Shown one piece after another: positions 9,134-64,000 of a stretch of 64,000 nt of DNA. The translations under genes were made by a program, and so were the position numbers. Under the pieces are notes generated by a model that saw only the letters and a program-made list of their open reading frames with translations, searched no databases and was not told the DNA's origin. Each line of letters begins with the position of its first letter. Positions within the stretch are counted from its first letter, which is position 1. The stretch covers positions 391,823 through 455,822 of the forward strand of contig JAJLTO010000014.1 in NCBI GenBank assembly GCA_030568195.1, in the 5' to 3' direction. Origin of the DNA: Dipodascopsis uninucleata var. uninucleata. Its lineage: Eukaryota > Ascomycota > Lipomycetes > Lipomycetales > Lipomycetaceae.

Positions 9134-10969
9134 TCGATATGGAATGCAAATCCCCCAATACTACAAATGTTCTACAAGATGGAGGAAGTACAGAGCAGCA
9201 AAATGAGCAGCAAAATGAGCAGCCAGGAATGGAGGAAAGCCAAGAGAAATTGGATGCGAACTCATCTAACGGGACCAATGACCGAAAAATCAGAGGGGTG
9301 CGCTGGGTATTGGTATGTATCGGGATTTTCTCTGCCAATATCTTGTATGGTCTCGACAACACGATAGCTGCAGATCTACAGGGTCCAATTGGAGAAACTT
9401 TTAGCGATTACCACCGTATAGGATGGCTAGGAATTGGATTCTGCTTGGGAGCAACTGCTTTCATTCTCCCACTTGGTAAAGCATATACTGTGTTTGATAA
9501 CAAGTGGATGTTTGTTGGTTGTCTAGCTATGTTTGCTGCAGGAAGTGCTCTATGTGGCGGGGCACCAAATATGAACGCTATTATTATTGGTCGTGTGTGG
9601 GCAGGTGCTGGAGGCGCTGGAATGTACTTGGGGTGAGTGTGACTTGATATTGAATACAAAATGCATATGCTAACAAAGAACGAGGCACTGCCTGCCAATT
9701 ATCTGTTGATCCATAGAAATCTAAATCTTCTTACAGCCCTTACTACGCCAAAAGAGCAACCACTGTATATCGCGATCATCGGACTCATATACGGAGTCGG
9801 TAGTATTCTTGGTCCAATCGTTGGAGGTTGCTTCGCCGATAGTTCTGCGACCTGGAGATGGGTATGTTGTATTTTGATTATCTTTTGATCTGGACGTGCA
9901 CACCACTAACATTCTACACTACCTGAAGGGATTCTATATAAATCTTCTGATCTTCGGTGTTATGGTTCCGATATACGTATTCTTAGTCCCTTCGCTTCCT
10001 CAGCAGATAAATCTGACGCTAGCACAAAAGATTCGAAACTTCGACTGGCTCGGTATAATCCTTTCTATTGGCGTTAATGTATCATTCGTGCTTATTTTTG
10101 CGTTTGGTGGCATTATATGGCCATGGAATGACGGTCGTACGATTGCGCTATTTGTCGTATTTGGATTGGTCACTATAGCATTTGCAGTTACTCAGTATTT
10201 CTGTATTTTAACCACCAAAGAAGATCGGTTATTCCCAGGGCAGTTTCTTCGAAGACGTACGCTAGTGGTACTATATGTACTAATGTCATGTGGTGGAGCA
10301 GCATTATTTGTCGCTGTTTACTATATTCCACTTTTCTTTCAGTTTGTTCATGGCGACAGTGGAACGCAGTCCGCCGTTCGATTGCTACCATTTATTTGCT
10401 TTTATGTGACATCTATTCTACTTTGTGGATATTTTATGCCCAAAACAGGCTACTATATGCTATGGTATCTTGCGAGCGGTATCTTGATTACGATAGGTGC
10501 TGCTTTGATGTATACGGTGCGTAGCTATACTAATCCTGCAAAAATATATGGCTATTCGATTGTTTTAGGACTTGGCATGGCGACCACACAAGCAGGATAT
10601 GCTGTGGCCACAAAAATGGTTACTCCAGATCAGATAGTAACATGTATTCAGTTTATGAATATTTCTCAAGGTCAAAGTCAACTTATAGGTCTCACAGTAG
10701 CCAGTACAATATTTCAGAATTTGACATTTCGAGGCATTAAAAATGTCTTGGACAAAGTTACTGCTAGTACTGGTGTCACTTATTCAAACGCAGACATTGA
10801 ATCAGCTATCGCAGGTGCTAAAAGTAGTATTTTCTCGGAAGTGACTGCAGATGTAAAGAGTAAGCTAATAGACGTCATCGTTCGTAGTATTAACGATGCA
10901 TACATATTAGCACTATCTGCAGGTGCACTGTATATAGTAGCTTCATGTCTGTTAATAAGAGAAAATTAA
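9124..10969 (+). CDS. MFS drug:H+ antiporter, DHA2 (14-TM) type, two introns
   Basis: Exons 9124-9632, 9717-9861 and 9929-10969 give 564 residues. Intron 1 (9633-9716, GTGAGT...TAG) and intron 2 (9862-9928, GTATGT, ACTAAC branch, AAG) restore the family string: GAGGAGMYLG-NLNLLTALTTP, and TWRW-GFYINLL. A hydrophilic, Gln/Glu-rich N-tail of about 55 residues is followed by the first helix, the D-N-T-I-A motif after it, the GRVWAGAGGAG loop and the antiporter-like GSILGPIVGG motif, all typical of plasma or vacuolar membrane multidrug exporters. It is divergent from a zinc-cluster regulator and convergent with the PDR pump. A decayed copy of its 3' end lies at 41250-41470. Confidence 0.9.
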
Positions 10970-11350
10970 CTAGAATTTATTTTTATTAGGGCAGAATTAC
11001 ATAAACTATAAACTATGACGTTCTACAAAATGAAAAATGTGCTCAAAACAAATATTAGCATTATTACACTTAACATGCTCAGAATTACAATATTTGGTAA
11101 GAACTAAGTTAAATAATGAAAATTAAAATATTCATAATGTCTATTTATTCATTTTAATATATTTCAAAATATCAAGTCCTGCCATAACTTGAGATAATCA
11201 GCAGTAGGCTTACATTCAGTTTCTTAAAACCTATGACCCCAGAACATCTGCTTAAACAATGAATCGCGCTACTCTTTCAATACCAAAAATATAAGAGAGC
11301 GATCAATTAATAAATGTATATAACCTTCGATAATTTAAGTATTATATGCC
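10970..11350. other. Convergent 3' flank between MFS and ABC genes
   Basis: 380 AT-rich bases between two stop codons. Its left part is matched by bases following the MFS relic near 41430-41470, so it belongs to the duplicated block. No gene seen. Confidence 0.5.
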
Positions 11351-14300
11351 TCAGTTATTCTTCTTAACTAGTACGTTGCCATCACCAGGCTTCATGGCAA
11401 ATACATTCGATTCGGGTTCGTGACGGTCTTTTCTTGGTCCATTGAACCACTTCTTGAAATCTAAAATAGATTTTAATGACCATACCTTAACTCTCATGTA
11501 ATAATAGCAAATGAGCATTGCTGCAAAGTTGAATCCGATATAAGCGAACATGAGTCCAAAGTTTCTCCATCTGTATGACCATTTGATGTTCACAGCTTCC
11601 ATAGGTTGAGATTGTAATGTATACTGACAATATTGACAGCCCTCTGTAGCATTTGGATTATTCAAATAACCACCCTTATCCTGAATATACTGATCAAAGT
11701 AACCCCCACATGATAGACCATTTGGAGGATCAACAACCAAATACTCTTGCGGCTTACAGATGAGTTCTCTTTTATCAACGAGCGGAGCAACGAAAGACTG
11801 CACGAAGTATGTGAATGGTGATACCTTATACATAAACGTCCAGAAACCAGGCATCAAATCGTAAGGCTGAAGGATACCGCAGAAAAGCATCATAGCCGCG
11901 AAAATATTAGAATTGATCATAGCTGCTGAAGGAACGTTTGGTGAAAAATATAAAATCCACAATCCGTAAGAACAATAATATGCCGGGAACATTAATACAT
12001 ATACCAAAAAGTAGTAACCAGCATGTTCAGGAGTTGCAGAGAATCCCGCAGGGAAATAATAACAGCAGAAACATAAGAATTGGCAAATTGAACTCCAAAT
12101 AATTTCCCAACCAGTATGTGACAACAGAAGTGTACTCCAATGGAACGTATTTGAAGCAGATTCTCGGACTTCGAATAATTCTCTACTATCATAGGCATAA
12201 ACGTGCAACTGGTTGATCATTGCAAGTGCAATGATCAGCATCATGAAAGTAGAAAGGAGACCAAACTCGGAATCTGCTAAAGAGTGATTAACCTTGACAA
12301 ATGAGAAACCAACGAGCAACGCACACAGAATAGTTTCCAAAAATTTGGCTCTAATATAAATTGGCGATCTCCAGAACTGAATCATTGTTCTTTTGAAAAC
12401 AACTCTATACTGATGGAACCAAGGTGTAGCAAACTTCGACTTGAGATCCTCCGCATTTTCCGATACAGGACGGGAAGGAAGATCATGATGCATCTGTGCA
12501 ATTTCAGCTGTGAGCTTCTCACACTCAGGAGAATTATTCCATAGATCAGCCCAATCGGCTTCTGTGCTAGCAGTAGCACCGGCACCAATACAATTCAATA
12601 TATATTCTGCAGGATTTTCTGAAACACCACACTTAACACCAGATTGACGCTCAAAATATGATAACATAGTAGCCGAATTAGGACCAATGTCACCGCAATA
12701 GACCATCTGACCACCCTTCTTCAAAAGCAATAGACGATCGAAAACCTCAAACAAAGTTGCCGATGGCTGATGGATAGTGCAAAGGATTGCCTGTCCAGAA
12801 TCAGCGAGTGCTCGCAAAAATTGAACAATAGACCACGCAGACTGCGAATCAAGACCAGAAGTAGGTTCATCAAGGAAAAGCAAGAGAGAAGGCTTAGCCA
12901 CCAACTCAACAGCAATAGACAATTTCTTTCTCTGTTCAACGTTCAAGCCACGGCCTGTTTTACCAATGATAGCTTCTGCATAATTCTGCATACCAAGGAG
13001 ATCGATAATTTTTTCCACATACTCATATTTCTCCTTTCGAGGAACCGTAAGGGGCTGACGTAAGTCAGCGGCAAATCGAAGAGACTCTCGTACGGAATAT
13101 TCAGCTAAATGAAGATCCTGCTGTTGGACATATCCAGTTCGTCGCTTGAACGAAGCATCAACCGGTCTGCCGTTTACAAGCATATCACCTGTAATAACAC
13201 CAAAATTGATTCTCTGAGCAAGGACATTAAGTAAGGTAGTCTTACCAGCACCAGACTCACCCATAAGAGCAGTCATAGTACCTGGCTTAACGAAACCTTG
13301 AACATTATTAAGCAACTGACGAGTTGCACCGTCGTATGGGATAACATAATCCAAATGCTGCCATGAAAATATATCACGACTTGCTATAACTGCATCAAGA
13401 TCTACGCCAGGACCATTCAGGGCAAGCATCATTTCATCTCTGCTAGCAACACGACCATCCACAGTTTCTAAACTCTCCGTTGGTAAATGACCTCGCTTGT
13501 AGAGAAGCATATCACCACCACCTTCAACGTTCTTAACAAATTCAGAGAGACCGACATTCATAAGAATAAAGCCAGCAGTCCACGCAATATTAATTCCAAA
13601 GTTTCTCCAGACGTGATGCCACTCAAAATTCCAGTATGCTTTCATATAAGCATCGCCAGAAACATAAGCTTGACCAGCAATAGATCCAGCAACAGAGCAA
13701 ATCTTATGAGCAATTGACACGCTATCATATCCGGGGCCACTGGGAACAAGACTAGCACATTCCATGATACGTCCATGCAACTCTGATCCGATCAAACTTT
13801 CGTAACAATATCTCATAGGATTTAACCAATTAATCCACTTAATCCAATGATGCATTAACGGCAACGGAAGAATGAAACCAGTGTAAATACAAAGCGCCAA
13901 AACCCATAAACCTGCAATAGCATGAGCAGTACCACCATCTCGTGTGATTGCAGCAACAACTTTGAAAATGAATGACATACACTGCTGAACCGTAAGCAAG
14001 AAAAGAATGAACATGAAAAAAGCTCCAGCATTATGCTTCAAATGAGGCATCCAATAACTGGTAAGTGCTAGAATAACCACAGCAACAACCTTGATAGGAA
14101 TCTCCGTAACAATTTCCTGTAAAGCTTCAGCTGATTGATGGTACATAGAATAAGACTTATGCTTCAAAATGATAGGACGATGAGCAAAAGAATGTGAAAT
14201 TTCAGCGAGCGAAGTAACAGCGCAGAAAACAAGATCATAAAAGAGAAGACCACCGCGAGAGAATAAACCTCTCGTAGATTCAGGGATATTGTAAAACATA

Positions 14301-15838
14301 GATCCCACGATGAGACCTTTAATCAAGAAGGATGATAAGTAAATACATTGATAGGTCATCTCTCCCCTGGCTCTCTGGAAACCGCGAACCATTGAGTATT
14401 TTACTTGGTTGAAATAGGAGGCGATATATCTAGATTGTTGTCGCACACCTCTCTGCTGCCTCTGTCTCTTGGAACTGTCGAGTCGCTCTTTTGTTTCCGT
14501 ACCACTATGACGTCTACAATAATCGTCATATTCCGCAAGACAGTCTTGATAATCTTGCGAAGCTAACCAGTAGCTCTCGAATTGTTCCGATGTTTCAGGA
14601 ACCTTGCCCGTAAATCCTTCTTGTACAAAACGACCATTTGGATCCGTGATAGAAGTCAAAAACTCAGGTGTAGTCATTCGAGGGGGCTTATAATATCCCA
14701 TCCGTTCAAAATATGCCTGCGCCTTCTGTGCAGGACCAAAGTAAATCTGCTTACCAAGGTAAATAACAGTCACCTTATCAAATAATTCGTAAATATTTTG
14801 ACCTGCTTGATAGATGGCAACCAATGCAGAGTTGTTCAGCATATTTGTCGCAGTACGAATTGCCTGAGAAAATTCTAAAGCAGTCGAGGCATCGAGACCA
14901 CGGGTAGCATTATCCCATGCATATATGGAAGCGTTACATGACAGGGCTTCAACGATAGAGACACGCTTTCTTTCACCACCGGACACTCCACGGACGAAAT
15001 CATTGCCGACATTAGTGTTGTAAGTATGTCGCAAGCCGAAAACAGTACACCATAAATCCCTCATAATACTAATATACTTCGAACGGGGAAGACTGTCTAT
15101 ACGAGTCCTTGGAGTTTTCATTTTAAGAGCGAAGTCAACTGTATTCTTCACAGTGATCATAGGAAAATGAGTGTCCAACTCAGGATTGTAGACGACATAT
15201 CCCTTATAATTCTCCATCATTTCTTTCTGAGGTACACCGCTGTAGTTAATATCACCTTCAACGCCCAATAGTTCACTAGTTTCGCCAGTCAAGCACTTAA
15301 GAAGTGTAGAACAACCGGCTCCAGGACGACCGACGACAAAGCACATTTCACCTGCCTCGACAGTACCCGTGAAGCCAGTGATGATTTGACGGGTTGGCTT
15401 GCGATCCTTGCGAAATAATTTAACAGGAAAACTAAAGAAGCCTCGAACCATCTCTTCAACAGAGGGGCCATAGGCGGCAGATACGTCGACACCTGTAGCT
15501 GTTAGATCTTTAAATGCAACGCCTGCGTCAGATGTTACAATTCCTTGCTCTTCAGACCTTGCATGAAGATAGTCCAACAATACTCTCAAATCGAAATTTG
15601 ATACGTCGACCTCAAACTTATCTAAGTCCCGCTTTGGTAATCTAGCTATGGAACGCGCGTAAGATTGAATACGTTCGATTGCATCCTCGCTTGAAAGCAC
15701 TCTGGACAGCTCATCAGCATAGATATCAGTAGCATTTTGATGCTCAACATCCTCAATGCTTTGAGGATGTCTACTCAATGTGTCTTCATCTGACGATCGA
15801 TCGCCAGACGAACTCTCAGATTTATATTTACTAGCCAT
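11351..15838 (-). CDS. PDR-type full-size ABC multidrug transporter (copy A)
   Basis: Intronless, 1495 residues, in the family's usual (NBD-TMD)2 order. NBD1: Walker A GRPGAGCST at about 170-178 with the PDR-typical Cys in place of Lys, signature VSGGERKR near 285, Walker B IYAWDN near 305. TMD1 about 495-780. NBD2: Walker A GESGAGKTT at about 860-868, degenerate signature LNVEQRKK near 965, Walker B LLLFLDEPTSGLD near 985. TMD2 about 1160-1460. The asymmetric sites match Cdr1/Pdr5/Snq2-like pumps that export drugs and lipids across the plasma membrane. The start ATG is the first in frame. It is convergent with an MFS exporter. The paralogue at 41776-46263 has exactly the same length. Confidence 0.96.
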   Translation of the reverse strand: MASKYKSESSSGDRSSDEDTLSRHPQSIEDVEHQNATDIYADELSRVLSSEDAIERIQSYARSIARLPKRDLDKFEVDVSNFDLRVLLDYLHARSEEQGIVTSDAGVAFKDLTATGVDVSAAYGPSVEEMVRGFFSFPVKLFRKDRKPTRQIITGFTGTVEAGEMCFVVGRPGAGCSTLLKCLTGETSELLGVEGDINYSGVPQKEMMENYKGYVVYNPELDTHFPMITVKNTVDFALKMKTPRTRIDSLPRSKYISIMRDLWCTVFGLRHTYNTNVGNDFVRGVSGGERKRVSIVEALSCNASIYAWDNATRGLDASTALEFSQAIRTATNMLNNSALVAIYQAGQNIYELFDKVTVIYLGKQIYFGPAQKAQAYFERMGYYKPPRMTTPEFLTSITDPNGRFVQEGFTGKVPETSEQFESYWLASQDYQDCLAEYDDYCRRHSGTETKERLDSSKRQRQQRGVRQQSRYIASYFNQVKYSMVRGFQRARGEMTYQCIYLSSFLIKGLIVGSMFYNIPESTRGLFSRGGLLFYDLVFCAVTSLAEISHSFAHRPIILKHKSYSMYHQSAEALQEIVTEIPIKVVAVVILALTSYWMPHLKHNAGAFFMFILFLLTVQQCMSFIFKVVAAITRDGGTAHAIAGLWVLALCIYTGFILPLPLMHHWIKWINWLNPMRYCYESLIGSELHGRIMECASLVPSGPGYDSVSIAHKICSVAGSIAGQAYVSGDAYMKAYWNFEWHHVWRNFGINIAWTAGFILMNVGLSEFVKNVEGGGDMLLYKRGHLPTESLETVDGRVASRDEMMLALNGPGVDLDAVIASRDIFSWQHLDYVIPYDGATRQLLNNVQGFVKPGTMTALMGESGAGKTTLLNVLAQRINFGVITGDMLVNGRPVDASFKRRTGYVQQQDLHLAEYSVRESLRFAADLRQPLTVPRKEKYEYVEKIIDLLGMQNYAEAIIGKTGRGLNVEQRKKLSIAVELVAKPSLLLFLDEPTSGLDSQSAWSIVQFLRALADSGQAILCTIHQPSATLFEVFDRLLLLKKGGQMVYCGDIGPNSATMLSYFERQSGVKCGVSENPAEYILNCIGAGATASTEADWADLWNNSPECEKLTAEIAQMHHDLPSRPVSENAEDLKSKFATPWFHQYRVVFKRTMIQFWRSPIYIRAKFLETILCALLVGFSFVKVNHSLADSEFGLLSTFMMLIIALAMINQLHVYAYDSRELFEVRESASNTFHWSTLLLSHTGWEIIWSSICQFLCFCCYYFPAGFSATPEHAGYYFLVYVLMFPAYYCSYGLWILYFSPNVPSAAMINSNIFAAMMLFCGILQPYDLMPGFWTFMYKVSPFTYFVQSFVAPLVDKRELICKPQEYLVVDPPNGLSCGGYFDQYIQDKGGYLNNPNATEGCQYCQYTLQSQPMEAVNIKWSYRWRNFGLMFAYIGFNFAAMLICYYYMRVKVWSLKSILDFKKWFNGPRKDRHEPESNVFAMKPGDGNVLVKKNN

Positions 15839-16160
15839 TATTCTGTAAGATATCTAGATGTCTATAGGCAGAGATGTCCATATGTCTTCAATCAATAAGT
15901 AAAATTAAGATGCAGAGCGAACAACGGCATTATATAAGATAGAGAATTGCCATCATGGAATTACGGCACTCTTGCCTCGGCCGATAATTATCCACTGCAT
16001 TTTGAATTGTAAATATGTATAGAAATATTTAATATTAGAGAATATCCTTGCCTCAATACTGTATTAGACGAAGCCGTTAATACGGGGTACTGGTTTAGAG
16101 AGGAAATATTCCGGATTCGATACATAACAGTTGATCCGCTTAGCCGGATTACAACGCGTA
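15839..16160 (-). promoter_or_regulatory. ABC gene promoter (copy A) with elements conserved in copy B
   Basis: Blocks kept between the two ABC promoters: a TATA-like TTATATAA at 15930-15937, about 95 bases before the start; GAGGAAATATTCCGGA ending near 16115; and the core CCGGCTAAGCGGA (gene sense) at about 16136-16148, followed by GACGG. The core contains CGG triplets spaced like zinc-cluster factor sites, plus GGCTAA. Conservation against a drifted background suggests function; the binding factor is not known. Confidence 0.55.
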
Positions 16161-18167
16161 GACGGCAAAATCACTCTGAATAGAATATCTGAGTTAACTG
16201 ACCTTCCAAATACAGTTTTAAAAGTTCAGTGTTAGTGTTCTTGAGTGTAAACAAGAAGATCGACGGTATGTTGCAACAATAAGCTATTAGAAATTGCCAG
16301 TATAATACGTGTGGCTCAAGGTATAATAACGTGTATCCCCTATTTCAGTTCGATTTATTACTAATTACAGCTATATCATACTGAGCATGGCATATGGAAA
16401 CTAGTGTGGTTTGCTTACAATGGGAAAAAAAAAAAAATTGGTTGGCTACACTATGGCTTTTTGTGCCGAATGCCGAAACCTGGCCGTGTTATCCGAAAAT
16501 ATTGTAAACAAAGATAGTGTTCGCAAACACTAACTACTCGCTTAAGCATGCAGACTACAGCGTACGAGAATAATATAAGTACAATTACGACACTAACAAG
16601 CACATATCAGACACACCACTAAGCGTAAGAGTAAGAAGAGAGATATATATATACAAGAATATAAAAAATCAGTTCATAGAGGACACCATGGTAATAGTGC
16701 ATTCTGTTCGAGATATTTCTCTGCTCGTCACATAGGACTCATGGGTTAAGGGTTCGGCGATCGGTAAGAAAAAAATAAAACTTAAATTGAGCGGCGAATA
16801 CCATTGTTTAGCGATGTTCGCAGCTTTTGGTAGCTGAGTATAGTAGCGCATGAAAATTCGTTCTTAATTTTATTGGCAAGTTTGGTATTTCGTTTAAACA
16901 CAGAGTTCGCGTTGCTTACTGGAGTGTATGCAGCATACTGCGAGAAATAATCTTTTTTGTGCAGGTGTAGAGCAGGAGAGTGGCCAACAGAACCATGAAG
17001 TGATCATTGCTGAATTCGAATTTGAACTGTTGAACTCATTTTCATTTTAAGTTTTGTCTCATTCTCAATGTGTTGCCAAAATAGTCAGACGTCTTTTCAC
17101 CATATCAATAGTGACTGATTATCGTGCTCTTGTCAAGGAGCACCGAAAAGGTATGCAATTTCAGGACGAGTATCTCTTCACTGGCTCTAACAGAGTCTAG
17201 CTCGCAGCATATATTGCGATGGCCATTGGCGTGAATTAGGTAAATTAACGAAGATTTTTTCGTGGATTCTGTCTGAGCTGGATATGTTCCGTCCCTATCT
17301 GATAATTGGTCGTATTTCGACTTAATGTATTGTATTCTTAGAAAGCAGACGGATGTTATAGAATTTCCATGCGTTAATATACACCACTGTGGCTTTGTAT
17401 TGCCATTCTACAAATGTGGACTCTCTTATTACACGAGATCTGACTGCAAGTTCGGCTACCATGGCCTTAGATCCGAACAATGGGATTTATTTACAACCAA
17501 TATGTAAGCTTAGTAATGTATGTCTCACCGATCAAAAGCTGAAATGCGAGTACTAGCTCTAAATATTACTGACTGTATCGTATCCGGAGCTAGTCTCGTC
17601 ATATTCATGATTTTGAATTTATGAATGGACGAATGGACGACTATTTAGATAACAAAACCTTCGGAGATTATGGATTTTATGTATTGGTGCCATAGTAGAG
17701 ACACTGATGGCGATTTCGTATGTTAGGGCTTCTCGGAATTAATGAGTATGGACAAACATCTGTCAGGATAACGCGGCCAAAAATCAGCGCAGCCCTTATG
17801 GCATATAAAGTTTTAACGCATCTTGTAGCACGCTTAAAATAGTTCGCCATCGGCTTGATTACTAATATATGATCAAGAATTATGTACAAACAACTGAGAA
17901 CACACTTTTTTTTTGTCATCAAACTACTTCTAGTTCCTGTACTTCTAGTTACAGTCACTTGCGTGACTGTTCAAAGCTACGTCAATGATGTACTGTAACT
18001 AATTCTAACTTACCACGAGGCCAGTAACTACGTATAGCACATGCAGTAATATATTGTGAAAAGGAGTTCGCAACAGCCATATCAGAATATTCGTCGGGTT
18101 TCTATGATATTCCGCTTGCGTTGAGATGTAATTAAAAAGTAATATAATTTTAAAGGCAAAAAAGAAA
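16161..18167. other. Intergenic region upstream of ABC copy A
   Basis: About 2 kb without a recognisable gene. The left 600 bases are weakly similar to the region 46600-47180. It contains a run of 13 A residues near 16426 and short chance frames only. Confidence 0.5.
18157..18164 (-). terminator. RNA polymerase III terminator of the tRNA-Ser gene
   Basis: On the transcribed strand CTTTTTTG follows the tRNA 3' end by about four bases. A run of six T residues is the standard Pol III stop signal. Confidence 0.8.
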
Positions 18168-37012: not shown

Positions 37013-39819
37013 AATAAGTGATCTTCAGACCTAAATGTCCAAGTCGATAATAATGTGTAATATAGAAGGCATACACAGAAAACGCAAGACAATACCTCCA
37101 AGAAATCACTACACGAATAATAGGGTCTTTGGATATATCCGAGATATAGCTGCTTCTATCTTCCATGAATTTACTGCAAACCTAGTATGTCAGGAATCCT
37201 GCTGTGACCAACGAACGAGTAACTAGGATTTGGCATATGTTTTCCAGCAAAATCCTTCAGTAACTTGATTGTACACGCTAGAATGCATCTAAAGACCAAT
37301 AGAGAGCGCCAGTTTCGAACTCTACAGTAAAATTGCCGCATCCCTAATCTCGTTCTCATATGCGTGGACCATGGAGTTGCTGATCTTGTTGCAATTATGA
37401 CTGCAGTGCTATTCAGTTCCATGCGACGGTATATCTGTTATTGGACCTTTGATCATTGCAGCATTTGGACTCACAAGTCTTGGAAAGTTTGGCTTAATAT
37501 ACTGTGCGGGAGCGCTATTCAAATTATCCCTATTCTTATAACTTGATATCTAGCGACAGAGCTTAATCGGAAATCTCCTATACTTTTGATTTCCTCTGTT
37601 TTCCCGACTATGGGATGCCATATGCTATTGAAAATTCCACATGTATATCCCTACAAAGGTGCCCTTCCTTAAGCATACTATATAGCAGCTAATTCTACAG
37701 CGCCATTATCACGTGGTCCTCTCAAAATACTACCGGAGACAAAGAAATAATGCATTGCTGGCACATATTTATTGCTAGCAGAGGTGAATCATCGTTGGGC
37801 TTCTGAGTGCTCTGTTTAATAGAAGAGAAAAGCCGTATTATCGAACTGGTATACTGTCTAATAATGTACTTCTTTCTAGTGTTAATGGCTTTGATCTGTA
37901 TGGATTGTGCTTCTGATTACGCATTTCAACAAGGGACGCCAGAAGCGTATCGATGTTGATTAAGAACGGAGAGCTTGAAGGTAGATCTTTCTGTGATGAC
38001 AGCAAAACGGCTAGGTCAAGACGGTACTGCTATGGAGGAGTCTAGAATCTCGGATATAAGGAACTGAATGGCAAGACTTGAATAATGTAGTTTGCATATC
38101 CACTTTAAGGCAATATTTGTATGTTTTACTCATGGTTTGTATGGAACATTAGTATCAAATCCCTTTTGCATTGGTCGCGTTCGGTGATATGATTGAAGTG
38201 GACTGCTGTAATAATGTGCCCTCGCTGAGATTTATTCTGCAGTGCTAAATGACCGAGCGCTTTTCTGATTTGGGAGTAAGCAGATTTCTTAGTAGATTAA
38301 GGTTTGAAGTTAAATTTGTTTGTGTTGGAGCACAAAGCAGCATTGACTTTTGTCAACATTTAAGCTTAAGTTGGAAATTATCTAAATGTGGATTAGTTTA
38401 GAATCGCAAGATGGTCTTTCCGTATTTGGGAAGCCTTGAAAGTAAATTTGTAGCAACAAGCTACGCAAAGTAGTATGTTGACCATAAGCAGGGCGCAAAT
38501 TCATATATAAATGAGGTAAGAGATGCATGTATGAGGAGATATAGTCATTGGAATAGAAGTGAGATGTTTAAGGCTTATTTGAAACAGATATAATCTTAGA
38601 AAAATCTAGTAGCTGAAGATAGGATAGGCATAAAGAATGGGGATGTGAGTTTCCTTAATAGGGAACGAAGAGGATCTTTTTGTGGCTATGATGGAAGTTG
38701 GCGAATACAGTACGCTTAAATGGAGATAATAGCTCATAAAGATTAAAAAGTGCGGCTCAAAGACAGTCGTGAATATGGATGATGACGATACAATCAATTT
38801 CAATTTATGTTATGCTAGCGGGCAGGATTGACAAGCTATACTAAATGCTTACAGATTGGTTTCCTAGCATTATATTAATATTGACATATCTGTAAAGACA
38901 AGTGCTTTTGTAGCTGTTGAATTTGCCAACTTTAGCTTTAAATCTACGAACTCTTCAAAGTTTAGATTTTTAAATAACGTAGAATGAGCGACTTCTAGGT
39001 GTTTAGAATATACAAGCTACCATACAATTAGACAACGAATAAGAGCTGAGCAAGATCAATAAAATTCTAAGCTTAGAGGATTTGGAAGCCACTTATTGGT
39101 AATTCTTACTCTAGATTTGATTTTGAGTTGATTAATCGTGCCGATAATGTACGTTTTGCAATCATATGAAATAGATTTTCAATTCAGTTCAGTTTGATAA
39201 ACAATAGCAAGCATGTCTACCGCACCTTCTCGTTAGAGCCTTCGATTGAAATCATAGTTTGTTCTACGATCACCTTCGCTATGAACGATACATTTTCATG
39301 TTGACATCATTAGAAATAAAGTGCTCAAATGACCGGGCCACAGAGAACATTATTAGGGTATACTGGAAAATAATTTAACGCAGCAACTTTACAAAAAAGT
39401 ATAAATAATCGGAGATTTTTTTACTCTAAAAAGCATAGACTATCTATAATAAACTATCGCTAAATAGGATATTCCTGTCATCTTATTTATGTTAAAATAA
39501 ATCTAGAATTGGTCCTGATAATGTAGTAAGTATATTAGAATTTTAAGATGCTCGACCTTAAGTGGGATAGCACAGATACTAGTTTTGATTTACATTTAAT
39601 AATAAAAATTCGGAATACGAAATATATGCTTAACTAGGGTTGATGGCGGATGGCGGATTACGCGAAAATTATGGAAGGTATTTTGACAAAAAACAACAAT
39701 TATTACCTAATGACGGCATTTCAATTAAATTTTGAAGCTAATAATTATATTTCTAGAAATAAATTTATAGCTGGTATGTTAGAAAAGAAAACAGATGCCT
39801 GTCACAATATTCAGTGGAA
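37013..39819. other. Gene-poor region of 2.8 kb with possible coding debris
   Basis: No intact gene. On the plus strand near 37430-37540 a frame reads GISVIGPLIIAAFG and further hydrophobic residues, which could be debris of a membrane transporter, but it is too short to assign. The rest is AT-rich with chance frames. Confidence 0.3.
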
Positions 39820-40707
39820 CTATGATTTTGGTACGATCTCAGACACAGCAATAGCATCATACTGAAAATCGACGAGCTCGGTATTATAGAGAAAGTCATC
39901 GGTGTTTTCAGGGATACCTTTCTTGACATAGTCGACGTACTCTATGATGCCACTATCTGCCAGGGCTCTGTCGGGTCTGAGAGCAGGACCACAATTATCT
40001 GCAAAGATGATCGAGCCAGTCTTCAGGAGGCTCAAGCGCTCCATGACTTTAAGATCAGGTAGATAAAAGTTCTTAAAGTGGTCGAGGAGTATAAAGTCAA
40101 CCTGACCAGGCTCTAGCACTCCCTGTTCGACAAGACTTGTGAGCGAGTCCGCAGCGGAGCCAACAAAGACCTGGACAACAGACTGTAGTCCGGCAAGCTC
40201 TATGAAGCTAGATGTGATAGCCGCATTGACGGGATTGACCTCCAGACTGTAGTATTTGACAGGATAGCCTTTGTTGAGGTCACGGAGGGCGCCGGCCAGG
40301 ATAGTGGCAGAGTAGCCCACGTAGGCACCGAACTCGATGAAGGTCTTTGGACCAGGCGGGAGCTTTGCCATCTTGTTAATGATATATTCCGCTTTGACAG
40401 GGCCGATAGTCATGAGACGCTCACCCTTGACACTTTTGAACAACTCGATAGTGCTGGCGACATTGGTGGGAGAATCACCGAGGTGGTTGATCGATGGATG
40501 CTCGTGAACGAATTCGAGGACGCTAAGCTCTTTCTTGTTCTCTTCCTATCATCACAATGACCGGCCAGAGCCAAGGGGAAAAAATTAGCTTATTCATTTA
40601 TTCATCTAATATTTTTAAGTAGAAAAGATCGAATTGTTACTTACGCTCTGACCGCCGCCAGTGCGGCGCGGAGCGATGCTGGAGACGTTGCGAGAATTAG
40701 CAGACAT
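39820..40707 (-). CDS. Catechol O-methyltransferase-like SAM methyltransferase, one intron
   Basis: Exons 40707-40645 and 40545-39820 give 262 residues; the 99-base intron has GTAAGT and GATAG. The ATG at 40707 gives MSANSRNVSSIAPRRTGGGQ, then EENKKELSVLEFVHEHP. SAM motif I is EFGAYVGYSAT at 92-102, followed by SLEVNPVNAAIT. Metal and substrate residues match animal COMT: LLDHFKNFYLPD and ADNCGP. The enzyme should methylate catechol-type hydroxyls with Mg2+. The gene is clearly richer in G+C than its surroundings: 37 of 60 bases at 40261-40320 are G or C against 23 of 60 in the ABC gene at 12241-12300. That may reflect strong codon bias or foreign origin. Confidence 0.9.
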
Positions 40708-41249
40708 GTAGGAGATTCGATGAGACAAACGAAATTGCCTATAAAACGAGGAGATGTAATAGTTTCGCTGGCACAAAAAACGCATGGTGGACAAGACGTA
40801 TGCTACTCGATTTATAGGCGATGAGGTGCTTTTAATACGGCAAGAGGCTTACGCGTCGAGCTGGGAGCACTTTGCAAGCTTGGCGCTTGGAACAATGGAC
40901 AGATTCGGGAAAAGGTATCGTTTTCCTTTTAAGCATAGTTGTTAGGGCAAACCACTAAGCGTAGAAGAAGGAAAAGAGACTAAGATTACATAGGGTTACA
41001 TAGGGCTATCTGGAATAGGACTTTAGCTTGAAGATCGATTCGACAATATTTCTAGAACGGCGTGGTTTTATGTTGCATTTTTGGAATGATTGATTTACTG
41101 AAAGAATACTAGGAGTAGGACGTCATCTATGGAACAGTGAAGTGATGTTGCTGTTTATAAGATCATTTGAAGTAGTTGAGACACATGAAGAATTTAGCTA
41201 ACTCGAGGACAAAATGTCGCAATTTCAATTTCAATGACTATTCATTTTT
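40708..41249. other. Spacer between the methyltransferase and the duplicated block
   Basis: About 540 bases that hold the methyltransferase promoter and the two interstitial telomere units (40986-41005). No homology to copy A is visible until about 41250. Confidence 0.5.
40986..41005 (+). repeat. Interstitial telomeric repeat, two perfect units
   Basis: TTACATAGGG occurs twice in tandem, identical to the terminal array and in the same orientation. It lies 280 bases upstream of the methyltransferase start and about 245 bases before the left edge of the duplicated MFS-ABC block. Confidence 0.92.
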
Positions 41250-41470
41250 GCGGTTCTAAATATCTCGTAGTTACCAGTACAATATTTCAAAACTTGGCAT
41301 TGAAAAACATTAAAATTTCCTGAAGGACCTTACTGTAGTGACACAGTTTGCGCATAGTCGGACATTGAATCAGCTGTCGCAAGTGCATTGCATATAGAAG
41401 CGTCATGTCTGTTAATGATGCTAAACTAGCTAGAATATATTTCTATAGGTAACAGAATTACATAATAAAT
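41250..41470 (+). pseudogene. Relic of the 3' end of an MFS drug exporter
   Basis: Matches the exporter's last exon and 3' flank (10690-11005). Shared stretches: CCAGTACAATATTTC, GACATTGAATCAGCT, TCATGTCTGTTAAT and CAGAATTACATAA. About 108 bases are missing relative to the intact gene, exactly between two copies of GCAGGTGC (10811-10818 and 10919-10926 in the intact gene). The 5' four fifths of the gene are absent and frames are broken. Confidence 0.85.
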
Positions 41471-41775
41471 ATATATATGCCACCCTTAAGTGCGTGAACT
41501 GCTTGAGAACACATGCATTATTGCATTACATTCTTACAAGTGCAACATTTAAACAAGAATCAAGTTGAATAATAATATTAAAAATTCCATAATCTCTATA
41601 AATTTATTTAAGTTCAAAAAATGTCAAACTGAATCATAATTTGAAATAATCACTAGTATACTAACATTTGTCTAGGACTCTAAACTCATAATCTTGAGAA
41701 CGCCATCACCTGTTAGCCGCCCCTTTAATACCAAATATAAAAAACAGAGCTGTCGATTAGTTAGTAATATTACGT

Positions 41776-44700
41776 TTAGTTCTTCTTCTTTTTCAGAAAA
41801 TTGCCATCGCCAGGCTTCATAGCAAATACATTCGATTCGGGTTCGTGACGGTCTTTTCTTGGTCCATTGAACCACTTCTTGAAATCTAAAATAGATTTTA
41901 ATGACCACACTTTAACTCTCATGTAATAATAGCAAATAAGCATTGCTGCAAAGTTGAATCCAATATAAGCGAACATGAGTCCAAAGTTTCTCCATCTGTA
42001 CGACCATTTGATGTTCACAGCTTCCATAGGTTGAGCTTGCAGAGTATACTCGCAATATTCACAACTCTGCGTAGCATTTGGATTATTCAAATAACCACCG
42101 TTATCCTGAATATATCGATCAAAGTAACTCTCACACGATAGCCCATTTGGAGGATCAACAACAAAGAACTCTCCCGTTCTACAGATAAGCTGTCTCTTAT
42201 CAACGAGAGGAGCAACGAAAGACTGCACAAAGTATGTGAATGGTGATACCTTATACATAAACGTCCAGAAACCAGGCATCAAATCGTAAGGCTGAAGGAT
42301 ACCACAGAAAAGCATCATAGCGGCGAAGACATTCGAGTTGATCATTGATGCAGATGGCACATTTGGTGAAAAATATAAAATCCACAATCCGTAAGAACAA
42401 TAATATGCCGGGAACATACAAACGTATACCAAAAAGTAGTAACCAGCATGCTCAGGAGTCGCGGAGAACCCACCGGGGAAATAATAACAGCAGAAACATA
42501 AGAATTGGCAAATTGAACTCCAAATAATTTCCCAACCAGTATGTGACAACAGAAGTGTACTCCAATGGAACGTATTTGAAGCAGATTCTCGGACTTCGAA
42601 TAATTCTCTACTATCATAGGCATAAACGTGCAACTGGTTGATCATTGCAAGTGCAATAAGAAGCATCATGAAAGTAGAAAGTAGACCAAACTGAGCATCT
42701 GATAGGGAGTGATTAACCTTGACAAATGAGAAACCAACGAGCAACGCACACAGAATAGTTTCCAAAAATTTGGCTCTAATATAAACAGGAGATCTCCAGA
42801 ATTGGATCATTGTTCTCTTGAACACGATCTTATATTGATGGAACCAAGGTGTAGCAAACTTCGACTTGAGATTCTCCGCATTGTCCGATACAGGACGGGA
42901 AGCAAGTTCATGATGCAGCTGGGCAATTTCAGCTGTGAGCTTCTCACACTCAGGAGAATTATTCCATAGGTCAGCCCAATCTGCTTCTGCACTTGCAGTA
43001 GCACCGGCACCAATACAGTTCAATATATACTCTGCAGGATTCTCTGAAACACCACACTTAACACCAGATTGACGCTCAAAGTATGATAACATAGTAGCCG
43101 AATTAGGACCAATGTCACCGCAGTAGACCATTTTACCACCCTTCTTCAAAAGCAATAGACGATCGAAAACCTCAAACAAAGTTGCCGATGGCTGATGGAT
43201 AGTGCAGAGGATTGCCTGTCCAGAATCAGCGAGTGCTCGCAAAAATTGAACAATAGACCACGCAGACTGCGAATCAAGACCAGAAGTAGGTTCATCAAGG
43301 AAAAGCAAGAGAGAAGGCTTAGCCACCAACTCAACAGCAATAGACAATTTCTTTCTCTGTTCAACGTTCAAGCCACGGCCTGTTTTACCAATGATAGCTT
43401 CTGCATAATTCTGCATACCAAGGAGATCGATAATTTTTTCCACATACTCATATTTCTCCTTTCGAGGAACCGTAAGGGGCTGACGTAAGTCAGCGGCAAA
43501 TCGAAGAGACTCTCGTACGGAATATTCAGCTAAATGAAGATCCTGCTGTTGGACATATCCAGTTCGTCGCTTGAACGAAGCATCAACCGGTCTGCCGTTT
43601 ACAAGCATATCACCTGTAATAACACCAAAATTGATTCTCTGAGCAAGGACATTAAGTAAAGTAGTCTTACCAGCACCAGACTCACCCATAAGAGCAGTCA
43701 TAGTACCTGGCTTAACGAAACCTTGTACATCATTAAGCAACTGACGAGTTGCACCGTCGTATGGAATAACATAATCCAAATGCTGCCATGAAAATATATC
43801 ACGCTTAGCTATAACTGTTTCAAGATCTACATCAGGACCATTGAGAGAAAGCATCATCTCTTCTCTGCTAGCAACACGACCGTCCACAGATTCCATGCCT
43901 TTCTTTGGTAAATGACCTCGCTTGTAGAGAAGCATATCACCACCACCTTCAACGTTCTTAACAAATTCAGAGAGACCGACATTCATAAGAATAAAGCCAG
44001 CAGTCCACGCAATATTAATTCCAAAGTTTCTCCAGACATGCTTCCACTCAAAGTTCATATATGCTTTCATGTAAGCGTCACCAGAAACATAAGCTTCACC
44101 AGCAACTGCACCAACAACTGTACAGATTTTATTTGCGATAGGAACATCCTCATAACCAGGACCACTGGGAACCAGACTAGCACATTCCATCATACGTCCA
44201 TGCAACTCTGATCCGATCAAACTTTCGTAACAATATCTCATAGGATTTAGCCAATTAATCCACTTAATCCAATGATGCATTTTAGGCAATGGAAGGATAA
44301 AACCGGTATAAATACAAAGCGACAAAACCCATAAACCTGCAATAGCATGAGCAGTACCACCATCTTTCGTAATTGTAGCAACAACTTTGAAAATGAATGA
44401 CATACACTGCTGAACCGTAAGCAAGAAAAGAATGAACATAAAAAAAGCTCCAGCGGTATGCTTCAAATGAGGCATCCAATAACTGGTAAGTGCGAGAATA
44501 ATCACAGCAACGACCTTAACAGGAATCTCCGTAACAATTTCCTGTAAAGCTTCAGCTGATTGATGGTACATAGAATAAGACTTCTGCTTCAAAATAATAG
44601 GACGATGAGCAAAAGAATGCGCAATTTCAGCAAGAGATGTAACAGCACAAAACAAGAGATCATAAAACAGAAGTCCACCTCTGGAAAATAGACCTCTAGT

Positions 44701-46263
44701 AGATTCTGGTATACTGTAAAACATAGATCCAACAATAAGACCTTTGATTAAGAAAGAAGACAGATAAATGGATTGATAAGTCATTTCTCCTCTGGTCCTC
44801 TGGAAACCACGAACCATCAAATACTTTACTTGATTGAAGTAAGACGCAACAAATCGAGAACCTTGTCTCACACCTCTCTGCTTCCTCTGTTGCTTAGAAT
44901 GGTCAAAATGCTCTTTCGTTTCCGATTCATTATAACGTCTGCAATAATTGTCATATTCCGCAATGCAATCCTGATAATCTTGTGAAGCTAACCAATAACT
45001 CTCAAATTCTTCCGATGTTTCAGGAATCTTTCCTTTGAATCCTTCTTTCACAATGCGACCATTTGGATCCGTAATTGAGGTCAAAAACTCAGGTGTTGTC
45101 ATTCGTGGGGGTTTGTAGTATCCCATCTTCTCGAAGTAGCCACGCGCCTTCTGAGCAGGACCAAAGTAGATCTGCTTACCAAGATATATGACAGTGACTT
45201 TATCAAACAGCTCGTAAATATTCTCACCAGCCTGATAGATAGCAACTAATGCAGAATTGTTCAGCATATTTGTTGCGGTACGAATTGCCTGGGAAAATTC
45301 CAAGGCAGTCGAGGCATCAAGACCACGAGTAGCGTTATCCCATGCATATATGGAAGCGTTACATGCCAGAGCTTCAACGATAGAGACACGCTTTCTTTCA
45401 CCACCGGACACTCCACGGACGAAATCATTGCCGACATTAGTGCTGTAAGTATGTCGCAAGCCGAAAACAGTGCACCATAAATCCCTCATAGTATTAATAT
45501 ACTTTGAACGAGGAAGACTGTCTATACGCGTCCTTGGAGTTTTCATTTTGAGAGCAAAATCAATCGTTTGCTTCACAGAAATCATAGGGAAATGAGTGTC
45601 CAACTCAGGATTATACACTACATATCCCTTGTAGTTTTTCATCATTTCGTGCTGAGGTACACCACTATAATTAATGTCACCTTCAACAGATACCAGCTCA
45701 CTAGTCTCACCAGTCAAGCACTTGAGAAGTGTAGAACAACCAGCTCCAGGACGACCAACGACAAAGCACATTTCACCTGCTTCAACAACACCATTAAAGC
45801 CGCTGATAATTTTACGAACTGGGGTATGTTTCTTAAGGAAAATCTTAGCTGGTAAACCGATCCATCCTCGAACCATCTCTTCAACAGTGGGGCCATAAGC
45901 AGCCGAAACATCAACGCCAGTAGCAGTTAATTCTCTGAAAGCAACACCAGCGTCGGAAGTTTCAATTCCTTGATCAACAGACCTTGCATGAAGATAGTCT
46001 AATAAAACTCTCAAATCGAAATTGGAATCATCGATTTCAAACTTCTCCAACTCACGCTTTGGCATTCGAGATAGGGAACGCGCGAGAGACTGGATGCGTT
46101 CAATTGCATCTGCATCCGAGAGCACCCTGGATAATTCATCAGCATAGATATCGCGCGTATTTTGGTGCTCTATGTCATCAATGCTTTGAGGATGTCTGCT
46201 CAATGTGTCTTCGTCCGATGACTGTTCACCAGACGAAGCCTCGCGGTTGTAGTTACTAGCCAT
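41776..46263 (-). CDS. PDR-type full-size ABC multidrug transporter (copy B)
   Basis: 1495 residues, intronless, paralogue of 11351-15838 and aligned without gaps. Both nucleotide-binding domains keep the same motifs: GRPGAGCST and VSGGERKR in NBD1, GESGAGKTT, LNVEQRKK and DEPTSGLD in NBD2. Residue changes cluster in the N-terminus (1-170), the 400-470 linker, an external loop near 700-735, the 785-825 linker, 1080-1150 and 1385-1420. Other stretches are nearly identical even at silent sites, pointing to recent gene conversion. The intact frame and conserved promoter argue that both copies work, perhaps with different substrate range or timing. Confidence 0.96.
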   Translation of the reverse strand: MASNYNREASSGEQSSDEDTLSRHPQSIDDIEHQNTRDIYADELSRVLSDADAIERIQSLARSLSRMPKRELEKFEIDDSNFDLRVLLDYLHARSVDQGIETSDAGVAFRELTATGVDVSAAYGPTVEEMVRGWIGLPAKIFLKKHTPVRKIISGFNGVVEAGEMCFVVGRPGAGCSTLLKCLTGETSELVSVEGDINYSGVPQHEMMKNYKGYVVYNPELDTHFPMISVKQTIDFALKMKTPRTRIDSLPRSKYINTMRDLWCTVFGLRHTYSTNVGNDFVRGVSGGERKRVSIVEALACNASIYAWDNATRGLDASTALEFSQAIRTATNMLNNSALVAIYQAGENIYELFDKVTVIYLGKQIYFGPAQKARGYFEKMGYYKPPRMTTPEFLTSITDPNGRIVKEGFKGKIPETSEEFESYWLASQDYQDCIAEYDNYCRRYNESETKEHFDHSKQQRKQRGVRQGSRFVASYFNQVKYLMVRGFQRTRGEMTYQSIYLSSFLIKGLIVGSMFYSIPESTRGLFSRGGLLFYDLLFCAVTSLAEIAHSFAHRPIILKQKSYSMYHQSAEALQEIVTEIPVKVVAVIILALTSYWMPHLKHTAGAFFMFILFLLTVQQCMSFIFKVVATITKDGGTAHAIAGLWVLSLCIYTGFILPLPKMHHWIKWINWLNPMRYCYESLIGSELHGRMMECASLVPSGPGYEDVPIANKICTVVGAVAGEAYVSGDAYMKAYMNFEWKHVWRNFGINIAWTAGFILMNVGLSEFVKNVEGGGDMLLYKRGHLPKKGMESVDGRVASREEMMLSLNGPDVDLETVIAKRDIFSWQHLDYVIPYDGATRQLLNDVQGFVKPGTMTALMGESGAGKTTLLNVLAQRINFGVITGDMLVNGRPVDASFKRRTGYVQQQDLHLAEYSVRESLRFAADLRQPLTVPRKEKYEYVEKIIDLLGMQNYAEAIIGKTGRGLNVEQRKKLSIAVELVAKPSLLLFLDEPTSGLDSQSAWSIVQFLRALADSGQAILCTIHQPSATLFEVFDRLLLLKKGGKMVYCGDIGPNSATMLSYFERQSGVKCGVSENPAEYILNCIGAGATASAEADWADLWNNSPECEKLTAEIAQLHHELASRPVSDNAENLKSKFATPWFHQYKIVFKRTMIQFWRSPVYIRAKFLETILCALLVGFSFVKVNHSLSDAQFGLLSTFMMLLIALAMINQLHVYAYDSRELFEVRESASNTFHWSTLLLSHTGWEIIWSSICQFLCFCCYYFPGGFSATPEHAGYYFLVYVCMFPAYYCSYGLWILYFSPNVPSASMINSNVFAAMMLFCGILQPYDLMPGFWTFMYKVSPFTYFVQSFVAPLVDKRQLICRTGEFFVVDPPNGLSCESYFDRYIQDNGGYLNNPNATQSCEYCEYTLQAQPMEAVNIKWSYRWRNFGLMFAYIGFNFAAMLICYYYMRVKVWSLKSILDFKKWFNGPRKDRHEPESNVFAMKPGDGNFLKKKKN

Positions 46264-46620
46264 AATGTCTTCAGGTGTCTAGAGATATCCGGAGAGTAGC
46301 TGACCATACGTCTTCTTTACATTAAATATGAAAAGTGCGAAATATAGTACAAGTAGCGACATTATATAGGAAAGCAGATGTTGCCTTTCGGTATAATCAC
46401 GGCATTCATAACTTGGCCGAGAAATCTCCAATTGCGTATTCACTCGTAAACAAATATTGAAATATTTAATATTTATGAAACTTCCATGCCTCTAAACCCA
46501 ATTATACCTAAGCCGTGGACACAGGCGTTGATCTCAGAGAGGAAATAATCCGGAGCCAGTATGTGTACAATGGTCGGCTTAGCCGGGTCACAGCGTGTGG
46601 ACGGTACAATCACTTTGAAG
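46264..46620 (-). promoter_or_regulatory. ABC gene promoter (copy B)
   Basis: Blocks shared with copy A: ATTATATAGG at 46371-46380, about 110 bases from the start; GAGGAAATAATCCGGA ending at 46554; and CGGCTTAGCCGG at 46574-46585, an inverted CGGCT/AGCCG pair, followed by GGACGG near 46600. Spacing to the start codon is about the same as in copy A (roughly 310-320 bases for the CGG core). Confidence 0.55.
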
Positions 46621-47180
46621 AGAGCATCTTTATTTACTTTGGTTTCCTATTATAGTCTATAATAAGATTGGTGAGTAGTCTTGTTGAGTATAAAATCAAA
46701 TTGGACGGTATGATGTCGGAGCATTCCTTAAGAGCCGCGAGCACCTCCTATTTATTCCCCTTAACTACCGATTGCTGCCATACCCTATGGTGTAATGAAT
46801 ATGTAAAAAGTACTATACTCCCTCAGTAAAAAACTCGCATTGCGGGACTATAGTATGGCCTCTCGCCGCGTCCCGAGAGATGGCCGCGATATCTCCGAAA
46901 AGGAGTAGACAGAGATAATGATCGTAAACACTAGGATATACGGTTAAGATGCAGCTTACAGTACACATAGACTAGGCAGAGAGGAGCTGAGATATCTATA
47001 GAAATATATCAGTATTCTTATTGACCATAAAGGCAGTTTATTTGGCTCATATAGAAGATGACGTTTATATCGAATTCTCAATCAAGATGTTTTTCGTCAG
47101 TCGTCAGCATAACTGGGCTCATCGGCTAAGGGTTAATTTCATCCAATGCGGCAGTCAACCGAATAATATCATCGGCTTTT

Positions 47181-49194: not shown

Positions 49195-49239
49195 AAAGCA
49201 ATTTCTAGTCTGCCGCCTTAACCGCTTGGCCATTCTTTC
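49195..49239 (-). pseudogene. Dead tRNA-Ser(AGA), 5' half only
   Basis: Reading the minus strand from 49239, GAAAGAA-TGGCCAAGCGGTTAAGGCG matches the acceptor and D arm of the intact tRNA-Ser (18168-18249), and CTAGAAA matches its anticodon loop with AGA kept. The anticodon stem no longer pairs (GCAGA against TTGCT), and the variable arm, T arm and 3' acceptor strand are missing. Confidence 0.8.
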
Positions 49240-55200: not shown

Positions 55201-55570
55201 TTGTTATGAACTTGCCTGTAGCTAGAGATCACAAAGTTTCGATATCATTAGAGACCTTTAATATTAAATTGAGCTTTATTGCAAGAATCGTCGCATTTAG
55301 TTGTAAGCATATACTATAACATCTATATGGCTTACAGTTGATATGCCGCAGGATAAAAACTCGGGAAGGGTATAGAAAATATTATTTAGCTTGCTTAATT
55401 TTACTCGTAACTAGTAGAATAACAGCAACGCAGTTGGATAGTCTCCCAGGCTGTATACATGACCATTCGAAGCCTAAAAATACTACAGCATAAATCATAA
55501 AAAAGCATTATACAGAATAAATTCGGCAACAGAAATACTAGTCAATCGGAAAGAATTGAAGCAATATAGT
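49240..55570. other. Gene desert of about 6.3 kb
   Basis: No intact gene on either strand; the longest frames are 60-75 codons and resemble nothing I know. Near 49270-49330 there is weak similarity to 18535-18600. Around 53200-53620 three plus-strand frames overlap and around 53700-53800 one reads YCSITKEKLSIGPIDILLG, possibly old debris of a carrier, but I cannot assign it. Confidence 0.45.
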
Positions 55571-56349: not shown

Positions 56350-56524
56350 GATTCATAAGAGGACTACAAAGAAATGGGGGAGAAAATTTATATTTATTGT
56401 AGTTTGCACATATATTGTATAAAGAGGGTAAGAGAACTCCGTTAAATATCTTGAAAGGAATATCCAAGAGGATTCTGCGATATTTATACAAATGTCTATA
56501 TAACGCAAATCCGGTTTCATCACA

Positions 56525-56555
56525 ATGCTTAGAATTCGAGTCGAATTCTGAGCAT
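56525..56555. repeat. 31-base near-perfect palindrome
   Basis: Arms ATGCTTAGAATTCGA (56525-56539) and TCGAATTCTGAGCAT (56541-56555) around a single G at 56540. They are reverse complements except for one position; the inner nine bases on each side pair perfectly. It lies in the upstream region of the HSP31-like gene. Confidence 0.7.
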
Positions 56556-59727: not shown

Positions 59728-60134
59728 AAGAAAGCTATCGCGGAGTTGCATATTTAAGGTTATTTTAGATAAATAACCATAAGTTCAGCTTATATTTTAC
59801 CTAACTTGAGAGAACATTTGCACTAGCCGTAACTAGCTAAATGGATCTGCCGAAAAAGTAACCCATATGATAATAAAAGTGATAAACGTAGACCCGGATA
59901 AATTGACATAACAGAGAGCATTGTAGATATAGTAATAGTAAAACTTTGACAAGAACATACACTGGAAAACCAAGACTAAATGTAAGCTTTACGTGAAGCT
60001 AAATAGAGTCAAATGGCTGACCTTGGCAGCTGAGCTAGTTATGGACCCAATAATGAAGCTATCCAGAGAAATTACGGATACAGAAACTCATTTTAGAAAG
60101 TGTCAAAGTGATTTTCAGCGAAAATAGAGAGCTG

Positions 60135-63230: not shown

Positions 63231-63870
63231 TAATAAGCTGAGGCACAGATATTATGAAGGTTATAAATTGAGTAGGGCCCGGTATAAAGCAGAGTCGCTT
63301 CTATTCTCTCACAGTGAGTAAAGTTAAGAGTTTTAGTTTCAGGAGTAAATTATGAGAAGAGTAAAAGTAGTTAATAAATTGAAGATTGGAGACAAGTATA
63401 TGAAAAGATGGATGGTATTTTATATAATAAAGGAACGGATGCAATGAATAATGGTCCGAGAACAGAGTTGTGCGTAGTAAATTGAGGACGAATATAAGAA
63501 GGCGTGAGAACAAGATCCGCAGATCAGGGGTTACGTAAAATAATTTACAATGCAGGATGGTCGGACGGAGTAAAACAAGCATAAGGTACGGGCAAAAGAC
63601 AATTTAAATAAGACAGGATGGTCGGATGGAGTTAAAGAATCATAGTACATGAGGGTTAGATAAAACTAGATAATAAATAGACAGTTATGAGAGGAAGATG
63701 AAGCGAAAAATTAGGTGGTTATAGGTAGATATGTATTGATTAGCTTATAAAGTGCAATTGTTTCATTCGTGTAGGAAGCAATAGGCACGCTTGAATTTGC
63801 TTTCGGGGGTGTTTTCAGGGATTTGAGGAAAGTAGAGGACAGACAGAAGAGGTGGGTATTTGAGCGGTAG
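63231..63870. other. Telomere-adjacent unique sequence
   Basis: About 640 bases between the SDR pseudogene and the telomere, increasingly purine-rich on the plus strand. It contains a diverged tandem duplication (63543-63660, separate entry) and no gene. Confidence 0.5.
63543..63660 (+). repeat. Diverged tandem duplication of about 60 bases
   Basis: CAGGATGGTCGGACGGAG near 63553 recurs as CAGGATGGTCGGATGGAG near 63614. Flanks also match: AATTTA before and CATA-GTAC after each copy. The unit is about 58-61 bases. Confidence 0.65.
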
Positions 63871-64000
63871 TTACATAGGGTTACATAGGGTTACATAGGG
63901 TTACATAGGGTTACATAGGGTTACATAGGGTTACATAGGGTTACATAGGGTTACATAGGGTTACATAGGGTTACATAGGGTTACATAGGGTTACATAGGG
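63871..64000 (+). repeat. Telomere, 13 units of TTACATAGGG
   Basis: Perfect head-to-tail 10-base repeats to the last base of the window, with the G-rich strand 5' to 3' toward the end, as in a right chromosome end. The unit shares length and 7 of 10 positions with the Yarrowia lipolytica unit TTAGTCAGGG. Confidence 0.97.

Follow-up and report, generated by a model that had tools for sequence, protein, structure and literature searches.

To our knowledge, short internal patches of telomere repeat have been well studied in vertebrates and little in early-branching yeasts, the Lipomycetes being one such early-branching lineage. In vertebrates, comparison with empty sites has revealed telomere repeats inserted at double-strand breaks, together with small deletions, fillers or microhomology (PMC8537989, in excerpt). 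Among yeasts, the repeats of the Yarrowia clade have, with one exception among the species studied, the form TTNNNNAGGG, and a query of 1.5 repeats led to a single intergenic locus for the telomerase RNA of Yarrowia lipolytica (PMC6746865, in excerpt). A telomerase RNA template is described as spanning more than one and not above two repeats, and the yeast Sm consensus as AU5-6GR (PMC3603654, in excerpt). Here, a pair of telomere units is described from Dipodascopsis uninucleata (Lipomycetaceae, Lipomycetes). Features of this kind are known, but the lineage has received little study. The repeat, TTACATAGGG, conforms to the TTNNNNAGGG form.

A telomere pair inside the chromosome

The window, i.e., the whole stretch of 64,000 nucleotides that was analysed, is the right end of contig C14 (455,822 bases) in an assembly of 16.2 Mb and 25 contigs, and the features that frame the pair are the following:

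39820..40545, minus strand: O-methyltransferase exon 2, same gene as exon 1
40645..40707, minus strand: O-methyltransferase exon 1, ATG at 40707
40986..41005, plus strand: short interstitial telomeric sequence, two perfect TTACATAGGG units
41006..41262, no strand: spacer from the telomere units to a duplicated block, no match in the genome search
63640..63869, plus strand: terminal subtelomeric element of about 200 bp, whole or part common to 9 other telomeric ends
63870..64000, plus strand: terminal telomere array, 13.1 units of TTACATAGGG

The two units make up 20 nt, and the flanking base on each side breaks the repeat. A pattern match finds TTACATAGGG 15 times in the window, namely twice in the pair and 13 times at 63871-64000, always on the plus strand; dinucleotide shuffles of the window contain single units at a mean of 0.07. 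The first-pass annotation had described two perfect units 23 kb inside the chromosome, oriented as the terminal array and very unlikely to match by chance, and all of this was borne out, as the pair is 22,865 bases internal to the array start in the same orientation, and base composition predicts 0.0003 perfect stretches of at least 20 nt, in any phase, for the whole genome. The pair is thus made of the host telomere repeat, chromosome-internal and above chance expectation; this excess, together with the poor fit of the pair as a telomerase RNA template (discussed below), identifies it on sequence grounds as a genuine short interstitial telomeric sequence (s-ITS). Over 262 aa, the spliced O-methyltransferase model and a deposited D. 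uninucleata protein are 100% identical. The start codon at 40707 can therefore be trusted, and 279 bp separate it from the pair on its upstream side.

Perfect telomere stretches across the genome

The genome-wide census was directed at perfect stretches and used patterns in all ten start phases whose first base breaks the repeat. Outside the bases excluded from the search, it is complete for perfect stretches of at least 15 nt; below this length it covers phase 0 from 10 nt and phases 1, 2, 4, 6 and 7 from 12 nt, with phases 3, 5, 8 and 9 left out. Eight non-terminal perfect stretches of at least 15 nt were observed, compared with 0.32 expected from base composition over the whole genome:

C17:167659, 25 nt
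C5:1342598, 23 nt
window pair (C14), 20 nt
C3:152184, 18 nt
C5:216902, 16 nt
C12:534059, 16 nt, near a contig end
C3:1476572, 15 nt
C11:331, 15 nt, near a contig end

The window pair had seemed to be unique in a search confined to a single end phase, which returned one two-unit stretch before a non-T base, and this was overturned by the all-phase census. Five of the eight stretches (25, 23, 20, 18, and 15 nt) are dispersed across unrelated settings, and the flanks of six, taken up to 500 nt per side, have no similarity among themselves. The stretch at locus L031 sits within a 2.8-kb intergenic region, and the 18-nt stretch at L033:5001-5018 coincides with an apparent intron 5' splice site in a DCAF4-like WD40 gene, the splice signals having been read by eye.

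Relation to the duplicated ABC transporter block

To the right of the pair lies one copy of a duplicated block, the other copy of which is found further inside the window:

9962-10969, plus strand: MFS ORF overlapping the left edge of copy A
10690..16273, no strand: copy A of the duplicated block, from the window self-comparison
11351-15838, minus strand: ABC ORF of copy A
41263..46715, no strand: copy B of the duplicated block, starting with a piece that matches the 3' part of the MFS ORF beside copy A
41776..46263, minus strand: PDR-type ABC transporter ORF of copy B, intact, 1495 aa

In the window self-comparison, strong homology links 10919-16273 (copy A) with 41379-46715 (copy B) at 85% over 5.4 kb, and a weak extension links 10690-10818 with 41263-41386 (69% over 132), with realignment placing the edge again at 41263. 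The first-pass annotation was therefore right about the proximity of the pair to this homology and slightly off in its figure of about 245 bases, the measured distance being 258. In copy A, the weak extension falls within the MFS ORF, and its counterpart in copy B seems to be a retained, decayed 3' fragment of this ORF, which is intact beside copy A; hence copy B may be the derived copy.

The two ABC copies share 90% of their amino acids (1346/1495), with a dS of 0.41 (NG86) or 0.45 (YN00) and a fourfold-site distance of 0.25; in the noncoding flanks, identity is 64-70%. For copies of this age, the probability that a neutral 20-mer has remained unchanged since the duplication is 0.011-0.027, or about 0.08 if the fourfold-site distance is used (calculated by hand), so that the pair probably postdates the ABC duplication, or is under selection. 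The fourfold-site value weakens the age argument, and selection on the site would void it. Given the 258 bp that separate it from the homology and the age of the copies, the pair probably does not mark the duplication and is probably not linked to it.

A possible origin by break repair

The best-supported explanation, which is held here with middling confidence, is that break repair left the pair as a small patch of telomere repeat, probably later than the ABC duplication and independently of it. A double-strand break would have occurred in intergenic DNA and would have been closed with about 20 bp of telomere repeat, supplied either by telomerase copying from its RNA template or by a captured telomere fragment, whereupon the broken ends would have been joined. 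The patch would probably have arisen after the duplication of the ABC block and without connection to its edge, and it would have no function at present. Capture of telomere DNA during break repair had been the second suggestion of the first-pass annotation, and it is preferred because the pair is perfect and short, because its flanks have no paralogous copy in the genome search (40406-60405) and because it is one of several scattered patches, of which the apparently intronic one at L033 is also counted toward break repair; the insertion itself is deduced from these features. The TERT domain encoded in the genome and the documented entry of telomere repeats at breaks in vertebrates are counted in its favor as well. 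However, three of the five scattered stretches (window, L032, and L035) are located 110-280 bp upstream of a start codon, two of these starts being our own reading, and this counts against break repair, as a random process would not favor sites near starts.

Binding site or former chromosome end

Tbf1 and Rap1 act as promoter-binding proteins in other yeasts, and the two units could correspondingly be the place where a Myb protein that recognizes telomere repeats, similar to Tay1/Tbf1, binds upstream of the O-methyltransferase gene, which is considered rather unlikely. The position of the pair relative to an ATG confirmed by a deposited protein would suit such a site, as would the 15-nt stretch at L035:4992-5006, which precedes the start of ribosomal protein L3 by about 189 bp and has a near-copy (11/12) at about L035 5067-5078, likewise upstream of this gene, and the 23-nt stretch at L032, about 110 bp upstream of an apparent DUF924 gene start (both starts as read by us), yet a binding site would not require both spacers to be perfect. 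YlTay1 binds TTNNNNAGGG repeats in vitro (PMC6746865, in excerpt), but single units are not clearly in excess genome-wide in D. uninucleata, with 22 matches, including three terminal array starts and the window pair, vs. 17 in the reversed control. Likewise, within 150 kb the repeat heptamers are not clearly in excess (the best, TAGGGTT, with 16 observed vs. 9.6 expected), and 16-mers within three mismatches number 3 vs. 7 in the control.

More doubtful still is the proposal that the chromosome once ended at 41.0 kb and that the distal 23 kb were gained by fusion or break-induced replication, which has to be judged against the organization of the present ends. Telomere arrays are found at 15 contig ends (nine right and six left), ten of which carry the ~200-bp element, whole or in part, adjoining the array (C5R, C11L, C12R, C14R, C15R, C16L, C18L, C22R, C23L, and C25R). 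The position within the element at which the array starts differs among ends, and at C15R two copies of the element stand in tandem. Telomere-bounded terminal elements are known, e.g., yeast Y', and the ~200-bp element resembles those of the Y' type. Among the arrays themselves, that at the left end of C9 (L080) contains the rare variant unit ACAGAGGG twice and measures about 380 bp, as opposed to 121-195 bp at the 14 other ends, and that at the left end of C11 (L082) contains the rare variant unit GCATAGGG once.

The last 2 kb of the 15 ends (30 kb) hold five extra perfect stretches of at least 11 nt, all in terminal orientation, with none in the opposite orientation and none for the reversed repeat. 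This would agree with a former end at the pair, which has the same orientation as the present end and is no more than 23 kb from it, although an orientation match alone has a prior of one half. Four of the five extra stretches border an element copy on its proximal side (C11L, C12R, C15R, and C16L), and decayed telomere remnants were seen by eye at other element edges, including that of the window at about 63650. At end-extensions in this genome, then, a telomere remnant adjoins a multi-copy terminal element, and no such element was found to the right of 41005. Compared with the 15 ends, neither the spacer nor the flanks of the three longest stretches gave anything above a 21-nt match (E 0.017), and the 600-nt flanks of the pair, searched for an X/Y'-type remnant, matched the ends, besides the repeat, over at most 21 nt at the same E.

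To the right of the pair, there are diverged relatives of sequences near other ends (C21, C16, and C18). In a search that ignores simple and very common words, 40406-60405 matched copy A closely (85%) and five other places, four at 66-70% and one over 56 bases at 86%. The first-pass annotation had proposed a former end that was lengthened with a copy of a block of the same arm; this is not supported, since only the 5.4-kb ABC block was copied, it begins 258 bp away and is 15% diverged, and the remaining sequence to 60405 has only diverged or very short matches, unlike real end-extensions. In addition, there is no lasting GC shift at 41 kb, and of four other scattered stretches, i.e., with the window pair, the telomerase RNA candidate and two element-linked stretches set aside, a single one is no more than 25 kb from a telomeric end, an enrichment that is not significant (P 0.087).

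Little credence is given to a variant in which the few perfect patches were kept by selection as Myb promoter or boundary sites (L3, O-methyltransferase, and DUF924), and 41.0 kb would also serve as a healing site after loss of the distal 23 kb. Break repair thus remains the favored origin of the pair.

A candidate telomerase RNA gene

The RNA-binding domain of TERT is encoded at C11:428442-428828 (E 2.8e-36; matches in none of 14 control genomes), hence a telomerase RNA template is expected in the genome. The C-rich strand of the pair, with the gene on the minus strand, was initially favored as this template, a choice that was rejected after the full-phase census and a comparison of loci comprising six of the eight stretches (near-end C12 and C11 were left out). 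A better candidate is found on C5:

L034:4700-5760 (C5 about 216.6-217.7 kb), plus strand: telomerase RNA gene candidate with template, TATA-like sequence and Sm site

The putative template is the 16-nt AACCCTATGTAACCCT at L034:4991-5006, which spans 1.6 repeats and has AACCCT at both ends. It is preceded by a TATA-like TTATATAATC at about L034 4710 and followed at +748 (L034 about 5739) by the Sm site AAUUUUUGG, and the sense strand of L034 4700-5760 holds no ORF over 72 aa. AU5-6GG has a background density of 0.06 per kb and occurs within 1 kb downstream only in the C5 locus out of six; at L033 it occurs at +1492, just past the end of the WD40 ORF. The C5 locus has about 2.4 kb of its own intergenic space, divergent from a PRMT5 gene and convergent on a kinase gene. 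At L034, three of the 19 sense windows fold more strongly than shuffles (two between -300 and 0, with z -2.7 and -2.1, and one between +600 and +800, with z -2.8), and z is +1.6 over the template itself (-100 to +100); in antisense, 15 of 16 windows have z between -1 and +1.3 and the remaining one -1.1. The window locus and C17 likewise have one window each with z below -2 (1/21, at +1000 in both), and folding of a 600-nt span fails to separate the loci (z +0.4 for L034 and -0.6 for the window), all z-scores being based on 30-40 shuffles. Taken together, the locus at 216.9 kb of C5 is quite probably the telomerase RNA gene of D. uninucleata.

Rfam was searched with the six 10-kb loci L031-L036, the C5 candidate, the C17 locus and window positions 39500-42500; none of them gave a telomerase family, and sub-threshold matches, such as CLRN1-AS1 at L033 (E 0.0059, 26.4 bits vs. 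48), were taken as chance. No description of a telomerase RNA of Lipomycetes was found in the literature searched.

It is very unlikely that the window pair is the template instead: its length of exactly 2.0 repeats is inside the stated range (PMC3603654, in excerpt), an 8-nt U-rich tract with its complement (a U-rich/purine 8-bp pair) follows 10 nt after the units as the sole such case among the six candidates, albeit by a criterion picked after seeing it and present in 15 of 2632 background pieces, and its best general pseudoknot score of 19.5 is the highest of the six (null 95% value, 18.5; L034, 15), yet that match is part of the methyltransferase gene (exon 1 and the intron), no AU4-6GR site exists within 1.5 kb downstream on the sense strand (the same holds at C17 and L035), folding just upstream of the pair has a z of +3.3, and the methyltransferase ATG and copy B leave only 556 bp between them. 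Generic pseudoknot scoring left the choice of template among the loci unsettled.

Significance and comparison with known systems

As the repeat is an exact 10-bp unit, every perfect patch can be found by a simple search, so that comparison with empty sites in relatives could show how often, and by what rules, breaks capture telomere DNA. A candidate telomerase RNA for the Lipomycetes has emerged from the same census. Literature matches to the letters of the repeat were, among the matches listed and by title, unrelated to telomeres, and the repeat may already be in print.

Budding yeast subtelomeric ITS (X and Y') are likewise internal repeats in terminal orientation, and their analogue here is at the proximal edge of the ~200-bp element; the window pair differs from them in being 23 kb inside the chromosome with no ~200-bp element after it. 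In Saccharomyces cerevisiae, a telomere-like sequence also lies tens of kb from the end and could prime telomere addition after a distal break (PMC12709191, in excerpt). Vertebrate s-ITS and TERC-ITS likewise comprise few internal repeats, which are scattered and ascribed to double-strand break repair (PMC8537989 and PMC6410037, in excerpt). The insertion of the pair is proposed here from its sequence, and the repeat is a 10-bp yeast unit, unlike that of the vertebrate s-ITS and TERC-ITS. TERC-ITS are defined by a flank derived from telomerase RNA, and the flanks of six of the eight stretches (up to 500 nt per side) gave no match to the C5 candidate at E 0.1, a comparison that presumes the candidate to be correct. 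Like the telomerase RNA locus of Yarrowia, the pair is intergenic, exceeds one repeat and was found by the same type of search, but it differs in having no Sm site, upstream structure or space, and the C5 locus is the better fit to this system (PMC6746865, in excerpt).
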